DNA of 64,000 bases, taken from positions 3,224,001-3,288,000 of the forward strand of contig CP129291.1 of NCBI GenBank assembly GCA_030437565.1, read 5' to 3'. Origin of the DNA: Terrilactibacillus sp. S3-3. Its GTDB lineage: Bacteria > Bacillota > Bacilli > Bacillales > Sporolactobacillaceae. The notes beneath the pieces were generated by a model. The model was not told where the DNA came from. It worked only from the letters and a program-made list of their open reading frames with translations, and made no database searches. A program made the translations under genes and the position numbers. Shown here piece by piece: positions 15,278-58,529 of this stretch (position 1 is its first letter; each line of letters opens with the position of its first letter).

Positions 15278-15540
15278 AAAATGGAGCGACTCAGCCTCAA
15301 ATGGGGCGACTTCGCTTCAAAATGGAGCGACTTCAGCCTTAAATGGGGCGACTTCACTTCAAAAATGGAGCGACTTCAAGCTCTAATGGGGCGGCCTCAC
15401 TTCAAAATGGAGCGACTTCAAGCTCTAATGGGGCGGCCTCACTTCAAAATGGAGCGAGCGACTCAGCCTCAAAAATGGGGCGACCTCACTTCAAAATGGA
15501 GCGACCTCAAGCTCTAATGGGGCGGCCTCAGCACCTCAGC
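15278..15540. repeat. 21-bp tandem array A (family 1)
   Basis: About 12 units with a 21-bp period. The plus strand carries the core AATGGAGCGAC or AATGGGGCG, alternating with CTTCAAGCTCT and CCTCACTTCA spacers. The complementary strand, the sense strand of the sigma-54 regulator that it follows, reads GCTCCATT. The array fills the gap between two convergent genes. Open frames across it exist because the period is a multiple of three; I do not regard them as coding. No other feature is seen in 15198-15706. Confidence 0.85.
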
Positions 15541-19118: not shown

Positions 19119-19160
19119 GCAGGTTAGACCCAAGGTTCAGCAGGTTAGGCCTAAGGTTCA
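19119..19160 (+). repeat. two-copy 21-bp direct repeat
   Basis: Two adjacent 21-bp copies sharing GCAGGTTAG...AAGGTTCA, preceded by a G+C-rich stretch with CCGGCAG repeats. It lies between putC and its terminator. The period equals that of the large arrays, though the sequence differs. Confidence 0.7.
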
Positions 19161-20234: not shown

Positions 20235-20413
20235 AGCCGCACCATTAGTTCGGGGCGCGCCGTTTTGCAGCGGAGTCGCACCATTTCGGGGTGGAGTCGC
20301 ACCATTTCGGGGTGGAGTCGCACCATTTCAAGGCGGGGTCGCTCCATTTCGGGCCGGGGTCGTTCCATTTCAAGGCGGGGTCGCACCATTTCAAGGTGAA
20401 GTCGCCCCATTTG
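20235..20413. repeat. 21-bp tandem array B (family 1)
   Basis: About eight units of 21 bp on the plus strand, core GTCGCACCATTTC or GTCGCTCCATTTC with GGGGTGGA or AAGGCGGG spacers. GCTCCATTT is the complement of the array A core. It lies downstream of putB and upstream of putP, on the sense strand of both. The remaining gap to 20654 shows a putative promoter region only. Confidence 0.85.
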
Positions 20414-20654
20414 AGTTTGAGCTGGGAATTTTGGACTGAGTTGAAGGTTTCTATCCACCTTGTGCAGCTTCTTAATCTAGCCAAACAACCTGTAGCTAAA
20501 ATAAACTGGCAAGGGCCTTTTGTTCAACGTCTATTAATGGAAAATGTTTTCTGTAAAATGACTTGACCGCGTCTTCTTTGTTATGGGATGATTTGATATA
20601 TTAGCACTATACTTTGAAACTATCAAAAACAACACATAAAAGGGGAACTATCTT

Positions 20655-38228: not shown

Positions 38229-38469
38229 TCAGGGATCGCAAAAAACCCGGGCGCAATCACTGCCGGCCGGCATTATTCTCCTCGACCTAAAGTTGCTGTG
38301 CGGATCCCGGCTTTTCCGGCTTTGAATTTTAGGCGGCGGATTAGCAGACGGTGGATTGGTAACCGTGTCTGCTCCTATCTGTTCCTTTAATCTATTTTGG
38401 AAAACTTGTAATACCGACGACCTGCAAGTGTTATTATAAATTAGATTTAACTTCAAAGGAGTGTCATCA

Positions 38470-39573
38470 ATGATCGATTCATCGCCTGCTATCGTTAAAG
38501 CCGGACCGCAAGCCTTTATGACCGGAGAAGGTATCTTGCAATCACTGCCCGCGTTATTAAAAGAGCGGCAATTAAAAAATTTAATGATTGTACACGGGGA
38601 AAAAGCATTAAAGGCCGCCGAACCTTTCATGCCGAGCCTGGATGATTTTAGTGTCCATTTCGAAAACTACCACGGTGAATGCACCGCCGATGAAATTTCC
38701 CGAATCGCCGCTCTGGCTGAGAAACTTTCCGCGGATGTTTTGATCGCGATCGGCGGCGGCAAAGTGATGGATATCGTTAAAGCGGCCGCCTTTAAAATAA
38801 ATGTTCCGGAGATTCTTGTCCCTACCGTCCCGTCCAATTGCGCTGCCTTTGCATCGCTAAGCATTGTTTACAATGAGAACGGCGCAGAGCCCGAACTGCT
38901 GCCGTTTACAAGAACACCTCATCTTGTGCTGATCGAACCGAAAATTCTTGTTCGTGCACCGATAAAGTATTTGATAGCCGGAATCGGGGATACACTGGCC
39001 AAATGGTATGAATGCAAAATTGGCTTGGAAGCGGTCAAAAATAAATCGATCGCCTTGACATTCAGTTACGAGGCCGCCCGGATATGCCGCGACAAACTGC
39101 TTGAAAATGGCGGACAAGCCTTGCATGATGCAAAGGATGGAAATATATCCAAAGCTTTTCTAACCGTCATCGATGCCGTTTTCTTTGGAGCGGGCATTAT
39201 CGGCGGGCTGGGAAATCCCTATGCCGACGCCGTTGGCGGCCATGCCTTCTATAACGCCGCGACTTCGATTCCGGAAACTCACTCTGTGCTCCACGGCACG
39301 CAGGTGGCTTACGGCCTTCTGCTGCAGCTGGCTTTGGAAAATAAGAACGATGAAATCAAGCAGCTGTTTCCTTTTTACCGCACCATTGGCCTGCCGGTGT
39401 CTGCCCGCGATGTACATCTTGACAACCGGAATAACTTGGAAGCCGTTGCCGCGAAAATGGCTGAACCGGGATCACTGATCCACGCTTTGCCGCGACAAAT
39501 CAGTGCCCGGGACATTCTCCAAGCGGTGAAGGATGTCGAAGCAATTACACAGAACCTGCTCATTCACAAATAG
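38470..39573 (+). CDS. iron-containing ADH-family dehydrogenase (YbdH/HcxA-like), copy 1
   Basis: An intact 367-residue oxidoreductase of the glycerol-dehydrogenase/Fe-ADH superfamily. NAD-binding IAIGGGKVMDIVKAAAF and VPTVPSNCAAFASLS; metal ligands Asp in AGIGDTLAKWYE, His in VGGHAFYN and His in SVLHGTQVAYGL. E. coli YbdH (HcxA) reduces 2-oxoacids such as 2-oxo-4-methylthiobutyrate-like compounds and neighbours the methionine transaminase YbdL. A close paralogue lies at 41 kb. AAAGGAG precedes ATG 38470. No S-box is seen here. Confidence 0.85.
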   Translation: MIDSSPAIVKAGPQAFMTGEGILQSLPALLKERQLKNLMIVHGEKALKAAEPFMPSLDDFSVHFENYHGECTADEISRIAALAEKLSADVLIAIGGGKVMDIVKAAAFKINVPEILVPTVPSNCAAFASLSIVYNENGAEPELLPFTRTPHLVLIEPKILVRAPIKYLIAGIGDTLAKWYECKIGLEAVKNKSIALTFSYEAARICRDKLLENGGQALHDAKDGNISKAFLTVIDAVFFGAGIIGGLGNPYADAVGGHAFYNAATSIPETHSVLHGTQVAYGLLLQLALENKNDEIKQLFPFYRTIGLPVSARDVHLDNRNNLEAVAAKMAEPGSLIHALPRQISARDILQAVKDVEAITQNLLIHK

Positions 39574-39779
39574 AACAGGAACAAAAGGCCCTTTTCTGTA
39601 ATTGTTGGTTAAAAGTGGCACCAAATATTTTTAGTAAATAACACAGATCGATAGCAACTTTTAAAAAAATCCCTGATGGTTTGAAATTAAACCCTATAAC
39701 AAAAATCAACAGCCCAAATAAAGCGAATGATGCTTTTTTTGGGCTTTTTAGCCTGCAAGTTTGTACAAAATAGTTCTCT

Positions 39780-40590
39780 TGGCACCCCGTTTTCGGGCCT
39801 CGGCGCTCCATTTTTGGGCCTGAAAGCTCCATTTTCGGGGCTGAAAGCTCCATTTCGGGACCCGAACGCTCCATTTTGGGACCCGAACGCCCCATTTCGG
39901 GACCCGAACGCTCCATTTTTGGGCCTGAAAGCTCCATTTTCGGGGGCTGAACGCTCCATTTTCGGGCCTGAAAGCTCCATTTCGGGACCCGACGCTCCAT
40001 TTCGCGGGACCCGAACGCCCCATTTCGGGACCCGAACGCCCCATTTCGGGACCCGAACGCCCCATTTTCGGGCCCGACGCTCCATTTTCGGGCCTGAAAG
40101 CTCCATTTTCGGGCACCAACGCTCCATTTCGGGACCCGAACGCTCCATTTCGGGACCCGAACGCTCCATTTCGGGACCTGAAAGCTCCATTTTCGAGCCT
40201 GAAAGCTCCATTTTCGGGCACCAACGCTCCATTTCGGGACCCGAACGCTCCATTTCGGGACCCGAACGCTCCATTTCGGGACCCGAACGCTCCATTTTGG
40301 CTTGCGAGCGCTCCATTTCGGATCCCGAACGCTCCATTTTCGGATCCCGACGCTCCATTTTCGGATCCCGACTCTCCATTTTCGGATCCCGACGCTCCAT
40401 TTTCGGATCCCGACGCTCCATTTTCGGATCCCGACGCTCCATTTTCGGATCCCGACGCTCCATTTCAGAACCTGAACGCCCCATTTTGGCTCGCGAGCGC
40501 TCCATTTCGGGACCCGAACGCTCCATTTTCGGATCCCGACGCTCCATTTCAGAACCTGAACGCCCCATTTTGGCTCGCGAACACCCCAAC
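39780..40590. repeat. 21-bp tandem array C (family 1), about 37 units
   Basis: The largest array, about 810 bp. The plus strand repeats GCTCCATTT with spacers of three main types: CGGGACCCGAAC, CGGATCCCGAC and CGGGCCTGAAA, all giving a 21-bp period. Many units contain the 13-bp dyad TTCGGGACCCGAA. Because 21 is a multiple of three and stops are absent, long low-complexity frames are open on both strands; I treat them as non-coding. It follows dehydrogenase copy 1 and precedes the SAM-riboswitch promoter. Confidence 0.9.
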
Positions 40591-40716: not shown

Positions 40717-40745
40717 TTGACAAATCGACTTCTTCCCGTTATATT
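40717..40745 (+). promoter_or_regulatory. promoter of the SAM-riboswitch leader
   Basis: TTGACA at 40717-40722, exactly 17 bases, TATATT at 40740-40745. The aptamer begins 38 bases later. Confidence 0.85.
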
Positions 40746-40782
40746 ACATATTAAACACATGAATTTAATAAGAATAAAATTT

Positions 40783-40888
40783 CTTATCCAGAGAAGCGGA
40801 GGGATCTGGCCCGATGAAGCTTCGGCAACAGGCTTTTATCACAAGTGCACTGTGCCAATTCCAGCGGGCATTTCGTTCGAAAGATAAG
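40783..40888 (+). ncRNA. SAM-I (S-box) riboswitch
   Basis: P1 arms CTTATC and GATAAG enclose the conserved blocks GCGGAGGGATCTGGCCCGAT, CGGCAACAG, GTGCACTGTGCCAATTCC and AGCGGG, as in SAM-I aptamers. SAM binding is expected to favour the downstream terminator, so genes are on when methionine/SAM is low. Controls dehydrogenase copy 2. Confidence 0.93.
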
Positions 40889-40898
40889 GAAGACAGCA

Positions 40899-41013: not shown

Positions 41014-42121
41014 ATGGGCTATTCATCACCGACCATTATCAAACCCGGACCCCAATCGTATATCAATGAAACGGATGCCTTGCAGTGGCTGCCTGCATTA
41101 TTAAAAGAACGCCGTCTCAAAAAGCTGCTTATTGTGCACGGCAGAAAAGCGCTGCAGGCGGCCGCTCCCTATCTGCCCGATCTCGCTGATTTTGACACTA
41201 CCTTTGAAACGTATCATGGCGAGTGCTCGGAAAACGAAATTGCACGTATTCACTTGCTTGCTGAAAGTCTGTCCGCCGATGCGATCATCGCGATCGGCGG
41301 CGGAAAAGTCATCGATATTGTGAAGGCGGCAGCGTGGAAAACCCATATACCGGAAATTCTGATTCCGACCGTTCCGTCAAACTGCGCTGCATTCGCTCCT
41401 TTGAGCATTATCTACGACGACTATGGCACATGGCAAAAGGGACAGGTTTTCACAAGAACATCCCATCTTGTCCTGATCGAACCTCGCATTCTATTAAACG
41501 CGCCGGTCAAATACTTAATTGCCGGCATCGGCGATACGATTGCGAAATGGTACGAGTGCCGGATCGGCCTGGAAGCGGTTAAAGACGACTCTATCGCATT
41601 GGCATTCAGCCATGAATCTGCGCGTCTCTGCCGCAACAGGTTGATCGAAAATGGCGAACAGGCCCTGCACGATGCCAAGCACGGTCTTTTGTCCACAGCC
41701 TTTTTAAATGTTGTTGATGCGATCTTTTTTTGCGGCCGGATTAGTCGGCGGGCTGGGAAGCCGGCATGCCAGAGCCGTCGGCGGCCATGCTTTTTACAAT
41801 TCGGCGACCATTATCCCGGAAACCCACTCCGTTCCCCACGGTACACAGGTCGCTTACGGCCTTCTGCTCCAGCTTGCTTTGGAAAATAAAACAGGCGACA
41901 TTAAAGCGCTGCTGCCTTTTTACAAGGCGATCGGCCTGCCGGTATCCGTTCATGATCTGAATCTCGACGATCTTGATTCATTGGAAAAGGTCGCGATAAA
42001 AATGGCCGAACCCGTTTCCCTGATTCATGGCTTGCCGCGCCAAGTCACTGCTTTGGACATCCTTGAAGCGGTCCGCACCGTCCGTGAGATGGCGCAAACC
42101 GTTCTCACTGCACAAGAATAG
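41014..42121 (+). CDS. iron-containing ADH-family dehydrogenase (YbdH/HcxA-like), copy 2, frameshifted
   Basis: Paralogue of the gene at 38.5 kb, nearly superimposable along its length: IAIGGGKVIDIVKAAAW, IPTVPSNCAAFAPLS, AGIGDTIAKWYECRIGLEAV; a break in the T-run near 41730 is followed by AGLVGGLGSRHARAVGGHAFYN and SVPHGTQVAYGLLLQLALENK with the metal His residues. About 368 residues. AAAAGGAG precedes the ATG. Its SAM riboswitch ties it to methionine metabolism, which supports reduction of 2-oxo-4-methylthiobutyrate or a similar 2-oxoacid. Confidence 0.87.
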
Positions 42122-47604: not shown

Positions 47605-47702
47605 GATTCCACCCCCTTTTTATGTTGAATTATAGCATAAATGTTTGAAAATGTTATATAAAAACACTTTTTAACATTTTTAATCATTATACGTTTTATC
47701 TA

Positions 47703-48340
47703 CAAGATGTCTGCTTTTTTATACAAGTCGCGTTGGGTCCGGGGGGTTGGCACGACTCTTTTTACAACTTTCGAACGTTTATTTACAACTTTTCGCGGTT
47801 TATATACAAGAATTCTGCTTTTTTATACAAGTCGAGCTGGGCACGGGGGTTTCGCACGACCCTTTATACAACTTTCGAACGTTTATTTACAACTTTTCGC
47901 GGTTTATATACGACTTTTCCTGTTTTATTTACAAGATCTCCGCTTTTTTATACAAGTCGCGTCGGGCACGGGGTTGGGCCCGTCCCTTTATACAACTTTT
48001 GAACGTTTATTTACAACTTTTCAAAATTTACATACAACTTTTCTCCGTTTGTTTACAAGATCTCTGCTTTTTTTATACAAGTCGGACTGGGCACGGGGTT
48101 TCGCACGACTCTTTGAACAACTTTCGAACGTTTATTTACAACTTTTCGCGGTTTATATACGACTTTTCCTGTTTTATTTACAAGATCTCCGCTTTTTTAT
48201 ACAAGTCGAGCCGGGCACGGGGTTGGGCCCGTCCCTTTATACAACTTTTGAACGTTTATTTACAACTTTTCAAAATTTACATACAACTTTTCGAGGTTTA
48301 TTAACGATTTCCCCTCGTTTATTTACGAGAGCTTCGTCCG
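47703..48340. repeat. 21-bp-based tandem array D (family 2)
   Basis: Five higher-order units of about 124 bp, each built of five 21-bp pieces plus one of about 19. Typical pieces are ACAACTTTCGAACGTTTATT, ACAACTTTTCGCGGTTTAT and ACAAGATCTCCGC plus T/A run; one G+C-rich piece (ACAAGTCG...GGGCACGGG) recurs per unit. Several pieces carry the dyad TTCGAA. It lies between the metQ 3' end and the ycnK upstream region. Open low-complexity frames are not considered genes. Confidence 0.88.
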
Positions 48341-55102: not shown

Positions 55103-55140
55103 ATTCCCGAAAAATTCTGCTTATTCCAGCGAATGTTTTT

Positions 55141-55245
55141 CTCATCTTTCGAACACTTGTGGAGTGTCCGCTGGATTTGGCACAGTGCTCCTCGAGCCTT
55201 TTGCCGAGATGTCATCGGGCCAGTCCCTCAATCTCTCTTGATAAG
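55141..55245 (-). ncRNA. SAM-I (S-box) riboswitch
   Basis: On the minus strand CTTATC...GATGAG (P1) encloses GAGGGACTGGCCCGATGA, TCGGCAAAAGG, GCACTGTGCCAAATCCAGC, the SAM-I core. It heads a six-gene operon (53.9 down to 48.5 kb). Confidence 0.92.
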
Positions 55246-55349
55246 AATGTCGGTATTAAATTGATTAATTCATATAAAAATACTAAGGTTTAAGATTGAT
55301 TTAAATTTTATTTCTTTATCGCTGAGATGTCAAGGTATTTTTCATGAAC

Positions 55350-57512: not shown

Positions 57513-57546
57513 ATGATGAATCGATAGATAAAGCGGGGGGGTCGAC

Positions 57547-57651
57547 CTTATCTATCGGGATCAAGAATCTTCCCGCTGGAATTAGCACAGTTCCCAGAAG
57601 GGTCTGTTGCTGAGGATTCATCGGGCCAGTCCCTCAACCTCTCATGATAAG
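57547..57651 (-). ncRNA. SAM-I (S-box) riboswitch
   Basis: On the minus strand P1 arms CTTATC and GATAAG enclose GAGGGACTGGCCCGATGAAT, CAGCAACAGACC, GGGAACTGTGCTAATTCCAG and CGGGAAG, a full SAM-I aptamer. Heads the amidohydrolase 2 / receptor 4 operon. Confidence 0.94.
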
Positions 57652-57804
57652 ATATTTCATATTTTTCACAGCTGTATACTATGATTTATATCTAATTTAA
57701 CCATCTCACCTGAATTTGTCAAGCACTAAATCTGTTTTTATGATTCGCCATATACTCGAAACCTTGTATTGGACTAGGTTTGAGAGATTCTCAAAATGGA
57801 CCAC

Positions 57805-58460
57805 CTTGGCGGGTACACGTACAACTTTTCGTCACAAGATTTACGCTTTTTTATACAAGTCGGTACGGGCCCGGGGTTGAGCCCAACTCTTTTAACAACT
57901 TTCGAACGGTTATTTACGACTTTTCGTATTTATTTACAAGATTTACGCTTTTTTTTTTATACAAGTCGGTACGGGCCTGGGGTTGGGCTCGACTCCTTTA
58001 ACAACTTTCGAACGGTTATTTACGACTTTTCGTCATTTATTTACAAGATTTCCGCTTTTTTTTTATACAGGTCGGTACGGGCCTGGGGTTGGGCCCAACT
58101 CTTTTAACAACTTTCGAACGGTTATTTACAACTTCTTGTCGTTTATTTACAAGATTTCTGCTTTTTTATACAAGTCAGGACGGGCCTGGGGTTGGGCCTA
58201 ACTCTTTTAACAACTTTCGAACGGTTATTTACAACTTTTCGTCCTTTATTTACAAGATTTCCGCTTTTTTTATACAAGTCGGGACAGGCCTGGGGTTGGG
58301 CCCAACTCTTTTAACAACTTTCGAACGGTTATTTACGACTTTTCGTCGTTTATTTACAAGATTTCTGCTTTTTTTTATACAAGTCAGGACAAGCCCGGGG
58401 TTTGGCCTAACTCTTTTAACAACTTTCGAACGGTTATTTACAACTTTTCGAGGGTTATTT
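57805..58460. repeat. 21-bp-based tandem array E (family 2)
   Basis: Same family as the array at 47.7 kb. Six higher-order units each contain TTAACAACTTTCGAACGGTT, ATTTACGACTTTTCGTC, TTTACAAGATTTCCGC, a T/A run, ACAAGTCGG and a GGGCCTGGGGTTGGGC piece. TTCGAACG dyads recur. It lies between the M20 peptidase 3' end and the SAM-riboswitch promoter of the next operon. Confidence 0.88.
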
Positions 58461-58529
58461 ACAACTTCCCTTAGTTTAATTTAGTTCGCCTGCCCGCCTC
58501 GCCCGTGAGATGTCCACGAACCCAAATAG

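Follow-up and report, generated by a model that had tools for sequence, protein, structure and literature searches.

Intergenic arrays of 20–21-bp units in origin-flanking zones of the Terrilactibacillus sp. S3-3 chromosome: possible phased docking sites for a putative protein

The RacA sites, the Noc sites and parS of Bacillus lie on the origin side of the chromosome, are sparse near the terminus and are read by anchoring or occluding proteins. Plasmid iterons and centromere repeats are tandem sites spaced by about two helical turns, on which one protein is bound side by side. The STAR elements of staphylococci contain the 14-bp GC-rich motif T(G/A/T)TGTTG(G/T)GGCCC(C/A), with spacers of at least 40 bp, 1–7 motifs at the loci studied and different loci in each species (PMC3532100). 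The archaeal Borg elements carry hundreds of tandem-repeat arrays, and the published examples include units of 18–21 nt (PMC9879509).

The window analysed in this study is a stretch of 64,000 nucleotides (genome positions 3224001–3288000) of Terrilactibacillus sp. S3-3, whose genome is assembled as one contig of 3,600,297 bp. It contains five arrays, which belong to two repeat families, A and B. The arrays of this genome share with the RacA, Noc and parS sites a distribution that is biased to the origin side and sparse near the terminus, but those sites are short and mostly single and palindromic, whereas here long tandem arrays of a non-palindromic core are found. They also resemble the plasmid iterons and centromere repeats in that the tandem sites follow each other at about two helical turns. 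However, each of the latter is a single locus next to the gene for its protein, whereas about 80 chromosomal loci with no common carrier in their flanks are involved here.

The closest likeness is to the STAR elements and lies in the many intergenic loci, the short conserved motif, the locus-specific spacers homogenised within a locus, the variation of copy number by local duplication and the change of loci from species to species (PMC3532100). Nevertheless, the STAR motif is not matched, the core here being the 10-bp CGCTCCATTT, and instead of a spacing of at least 40 bp we find steps of 20–21 bp with a variable part of 10–11 bp. Array sizes of up to 87 units, the coexistence of several unrelated families in a genome, the two-turn period and the origin-flanking zone are likewise unlike STAR. 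The Borg repeats are similar in unit size, in being partly intergenic, in having units not all divisible by three and in evolving rapidly; they differ in that they are perfect copies, independent at each locus, located in genes in about half of the cases and extrachromosomal (PMC9879509). The description consulted reports no shared core, whereas family A has one. Since the STAR logic is shared but its motif and spacing fail, and since the Borg repeats are independent at each locus, the arrays are a variant of the interspersed intergenic direct repeats, a known kind, with several traits that differ from those of STAR elements. In the literature on 21-bp intergenic satellites, of which our coverage was partial, the STAR and Borg repeats were the only near matches, and an earlier description may exist.

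The focal array and its surroundings

The focal array of family A (39804–40573, plus strand) consists of 37 units, which carry the core CGCTCCATTT, CGCCCCATTT or AGCTCCATTT followed by an 11-bp variable part (dyad subtype GAAC). Tandem Repeats Finder placed it at 39804–40573 with a period of 21, 36.6 copies, 83% matches and a score of 771. When the array was cut at the core, 33 of the 37 units measured 21 bp, two measured 20 bp, one 22 bp and one 23 bp, giving a mean period of 21.03 bp. The earlier note, which had reported about 37 copies and dyads recurring every 21 bp, was right on both points, and the spacing is close to two helical turns. The units fall into 18 variants, arranged as ABCDCAEFGHCCIFJCCKLJCCCMNOOOOOOPQCOPR, in which identical variants are clustered: nine neighbouring pairs are identical, as against 3.8 in shuffles (p = 0.003). 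This adjoining of identical variants supports the growth by local duplication that had been suggested earlier, as does variant O (CGGATCCCGAC), the spacer subtype already seen to cluster, which forms a single block of six at 40330–40455. A blastn search against plasmids and phages gave no match.

It should be noted that the assembly is 76% complete by markers and contains broken genes; it is therefore probably indel-prone, and single-base length differences are not to be over-read. Both ParB-type genes of the host (genome 3590581 and 3592351) look broken (131-aa open frame; internal stop), which is consistent with indel errors in the assembly.

The focal array sits between two tandem paralogues of the alcohol dehydrogenase family. 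The upstream neighbour (38461–39573, plus strand) codes for an iron-containing alcohol dehydrogenase family protein of 370 aa. In the gap between this gene and the array, a terminator-like inverted repeat, AGCCCAAA...TTTGGGCTTTTT (39711–39750, plus strand), was read directly from the sequence; its long loop is beyond the limits of the terminator scanner. The downstream paralogue (41014–42121, plus strand) is 65% identical to the upstream gene and is split in two frames near a T run. Outside the array, on its 3' side, are a promoter-like TTGACA-17-TATATT (40717–40745, plus strand) and the SAM riboswitch leader of the downstream gene (40781–40890, plus strand, 86.8 bits), and the array ends about 140 bp short of this promoter-like site and riboswitch. 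A SAM riboswitch ahead of a gene of the iron-containing alcohol dehydrogenase family (41014–42121) seems unusual for such an enzyme. Two further SAM riboswitches are present on the minus strand of the window, at 55139–55247 and 57545–57653, and one of them stops about 180 bp before a family-B array.

The sequence TTCGGGACCCGAA in the focal array is a perfect 13-bp dyad, and perfect dyads of 12–14 bp occur in 31% of the units, whereas shuffled variable parts yield 1%, so the embedded dyads described in the earlier note are real. Together with the position between two paralogous genes, they would suit an operator array whose dyads are the binding sites of a dimeric protein regulating the flanking alcohol-dehydrogenase-like genes. 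The next promoter and the SAM riboswitch, however, lie outside the array. Another reading is an RNA function, with transcripts of the arrays forming strings of small hairpins that serve as a sponge, an attenuator or a stabiliser. In favour of this, the plus strand of the focal array folds better than its shuffles (z = -4.75), but the minus strand does not (z = -1.33) and the array matches no known RNA family. Meanwhile, 21 bp equal seven codons and long open frames span the array on both strands, as would be expected of a heptapeptide-repeat protein. Several frames are open on both strands because the unit contains no stops; moreover, the 20-, 22- and 23-bp units break the frame, and the largest frame matches no Pfam family.

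Array families, their core and their period

Besides the focal array, family A is represented in the window by a second array of the GACTTC/GAAGT subtype at 15278–15530, whose core is read on the minus strand and whose higher-order unit measures 42 bp, and by a third one at 20238–20423 (plus strand) with the variant core CGCACCATTT. The two arrays of family B, the core of which is TTTATNTACAAC, are located at 47695–48338 (plus strand, higher-order units of 104/124 bp) and 57834–58467 (plus strand, 106-bp higher-order unit). A 21-bp repeat resembling family D (GCAGGTTAGACCCAAGGTTCA) is present as two units at 19119–19160 (plus strand).

The pattern CGCTCCATTTY gave 426 matches in the host genome as against one for the reversed control, and BLAST searches with the focal array, the second A array and a B array detected dozens of loci. 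In the 1.07 Mb examined, about 30% of the genome in stretches chosen mostly by their matches, we counted 82 arrays of at least three cores. Family A accounts for 48 of them, family B for 31, family C (CGACAGTTTA) for two and family D for one. The genome contains at least four unit families unrelated in sequence. Arrays with at least four cores add up to 39.8 kb, about 1.1% of the genome. No common mobile carrier was found around the arrays, but some flanks share patches, one of which (425 bp at 98%, shared by the A arrays at 798 kb and 3155 kb) is perhaps a dispersed element. A 94-bp tandem repeat at genome 113822–114360 (5.7 copies, 98% matches) is unlike the 21-bp families, and a 117-bp repeat at genome 1496020 seems to hold part of it, reversed.

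In family A, the first ten bases of the unit are kept except for the fourth, and the remaining eleven are free to vary. The information content of the core was measured with the anchor placed elsewhere in the core, which avoids circularity. With the anchor on CATT alone, CGC and the C directly before the anchor carry 1.5–1.8 bits each; with the anchor on CGC alone, CATTT carries 1.4–1.8 bits. Most positions of the variable part have 0.04–0.65 bit, and a weaker preference for GAA/GT (0.7–0.9 bit) is seen just 5' of the core. In the family-A arrays of at least 15 hits, the core is kept in 88% of 1017 units; if its positions mismatched as often as the variable sites, 6% would be expected to keep it, a rough figure because arrays mix subtypes. 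An identical 21-bp unit is common to only 20 of the 903 array pairs, although units repeat within arrays, so recent copying among loci does not account for the core that they have in common. A CRISPR array, which has repeats of 23–47 bp and unique spacers, was considered and rejected: the conserved stretch measures 10 bp, and the sequences in between are recurring variants of one another.

Perfect dyads are clearly above shuffles in only one other array of family A (at 798 kb, 17% of the units) and are absent or rare in nearly all the rest. What the earlier note had taken for a separator between the dyads is the non-palindromic core that is kept genome-wide, while the dyad is specific to the array. 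Operators would need conserved palindromic sites, but across family A the dyad part is near random and the core is conserved instead. In addition, the orientation of the arrays to genes shows no bias genome-wide, with flanking genes in all combinations and no fixed orientation to a promoter. The operator array for a dimeric protein, as proposed in the earlier note, is thus highly improbable. The RNA function is also very unlikely, as only dyad-rich units would fold and most family-A arrays contain no clear dyads.

The mean step is 20.71 bp both in family A (28 arrays, range 20.3–21.0) and in family B (16 arrays, range 20.5–21.2), the sequence of which is unrelated to A, and this mean period is two helical turns. 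Among the neighbouring cores of family A, 849 pairs are separated by 20 or 21 bp as against 9 separated by 19 or 22 bp. Nearly all the remaining core steps are near-multiples of the unit. The 20-bp steps make up about a quarter of the single-unit steps in this family, and the higher-order repeats in the arrays measure 41–250 bp, including 41, 62, 103 and 124 bp. The mixed 20- and 21-bp steps and the higher-order units of 41, 62, 103 and 124 bp exclude coding as a general explanation, so that the probability of a heptapeptide-repeat protein is next to negligible. The helical phase test performed at half-unit offsets (off-register steps) was not significant. Bending by A-tracts was rejected as a general cause, since family D as well as the array of genome G026 and several units of genome G129, both described below, contain no A-tracts.

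Distribution on the chromosome and in relatives

By GC skew, the origin lies close to base 1 and the terminus at about 1.85 Mb. The arrays sit between predicted genes, nearly all overlaps being frames inside the repeats themselves. Of 82 arrays, 80 are located at 0.15–1.0 Mb from the origin and none within 150 kb of it, while the rest of the chromosome contains two small arrays, and one of these two may be a fortuitous match within a gene. Outside the origin-flanking zone there is also a three-copy remnant at 1.41 Mb, and a 17-unit array at 2.495 Mb lies right at the 1.1-Mb edge of the zone. When arrays within 20 kb were merged, 26 of the 27 resulting clusters were at 0.15–1.11 Mb from the origin (p about 1e-6, for zone boundaries set after seeing the data). 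The list of A-core matches, which is complete to 2.886 Mb and independent of the choice of stretches, agrees with the origin-flanking zone; in the full list of B-core matches, equally independent of that choice, one of 79 falls between 0.73 and 2.79 Mb. The terminus half of the chromosome is nearly empty of arrays.

Two adjacent cores of family A were not found in 57 relatives. A looser A pattern had one or few matches in 35 of the 396 genomes of the order, and G129, with six matches, was among them. Meanwhile, similar 20–21-bp intergenic arrays with other cores are present elsewhere in the order, both in further genera of the host's family and in two different families. In G009, a genome of the same family assembled as a single contig, the arrays have the core ATCCNAGAAGGT and higher-order units of 104 and 125 bp. 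They are located at 0.27, 0.47, 0.60, 3.80 and 4.30 Mb of 4.80 Mb, and samples taken at 1.5, 2.2 and 3.0 Mb contained no such array. Array units with AGTCGAACCGAA were found in G014 and 42-bp units with TTCGGTTC in G018. In other families, G026 carries a 1.1-kb array with CTTGGGCYGTTA and G129 carries several arrays, some of them with GCTCCATTT-like cores. A single 20-kb stretch of G129 contains four 20–21-bp arrays, one of which has 34 copies. In most other relatives none was seen in the single stretch of about 20 kb inspected in each, which says little on whole genomes. The core sequences turn over between genera.

This change of cores from genus to genus would be in line with selfish or neutral minisatellites, generated by slippage, unequal recombination or an amplifying enzyme that needs the core, and having no host function. 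The local duplication with its higher-order repeats of 41–250 bp and the lack of a fixed orientation to genes point in the same direction, and we regard such an origin as a serious possibility. However, plain slippage would not keep about 10 of 21 positions constant in 48 arrays, mostly unlinked, and let the others become random, nor would it give two unrelated families an identical mean of 20.71 bp, and it leaves the near-empty terminus half unexplained. A core-specific amplifying enzyme would account for the roughly 10 fixed positions. Core-dependent amplification without host benefit, from which a similar pattern is expected, is nearly as likely as the docking of a host protein on the arrays.

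Proposed docking of a putative protein

We tentatively favour the reading that the arrays are helically phased docking sites for a putative protein and may serve to organise the chromosome on either side of the origin. Phased docking sites would be expected to combine a constant core with a drifting remainder of the unit and to keep a two-turn period across many loci and several families, as the arrays do, and the origin-flanking zone suggests chromosome organisation. From these patterns we infer that the core CGCTCCATTT is bound by a protein, that this protein acts multivalently and that it has a chromosomal role. A putative sequence-specific DNA-binding protein would recognise the ten-base core, and with sites every 20–21 bp, that is, every two turns, the bound molecules would come to lie on one face of the helix and could assemble side by side. 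The sequence between the cores would drift freely and spread within each array via local duplication. If so, the approximately 80 arrays in the two origin-flanking zones would most likely organise or anchor the chromosome and not regulate single genes.

No extra ParB-type genes were found as candidate binders, as every genome tested has two of them. G036, which also has two ParB-type proteins, contains no array in its single 20-kb stretch. Since one genome carries several unrelated families, either several proteins or a single, loosely specific one would be required.

A wider reading, which we consider unlikely, is that the arrays make up a satellite system in bacteria comparable to the centromeric satellites. 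In such a system, the phased origin-flanking arrays would be read by a fast-evolving DNA-binding protein; from genus to genus the cores would differ, but the two-turn architecture would stay. Satellite-like DNA is generally regarded as scarce in bacterial chromosomes. The approximately 80 phased arrays in the origin-flanking regions, together with the like architecture in relatives, would be a testable bacterial counterpart to satellite DNA and could lead to a new chromosome-organising protein. Even if selfish, the arrays would remain a clear example of satellites evolving convergently towards a two-turn period.
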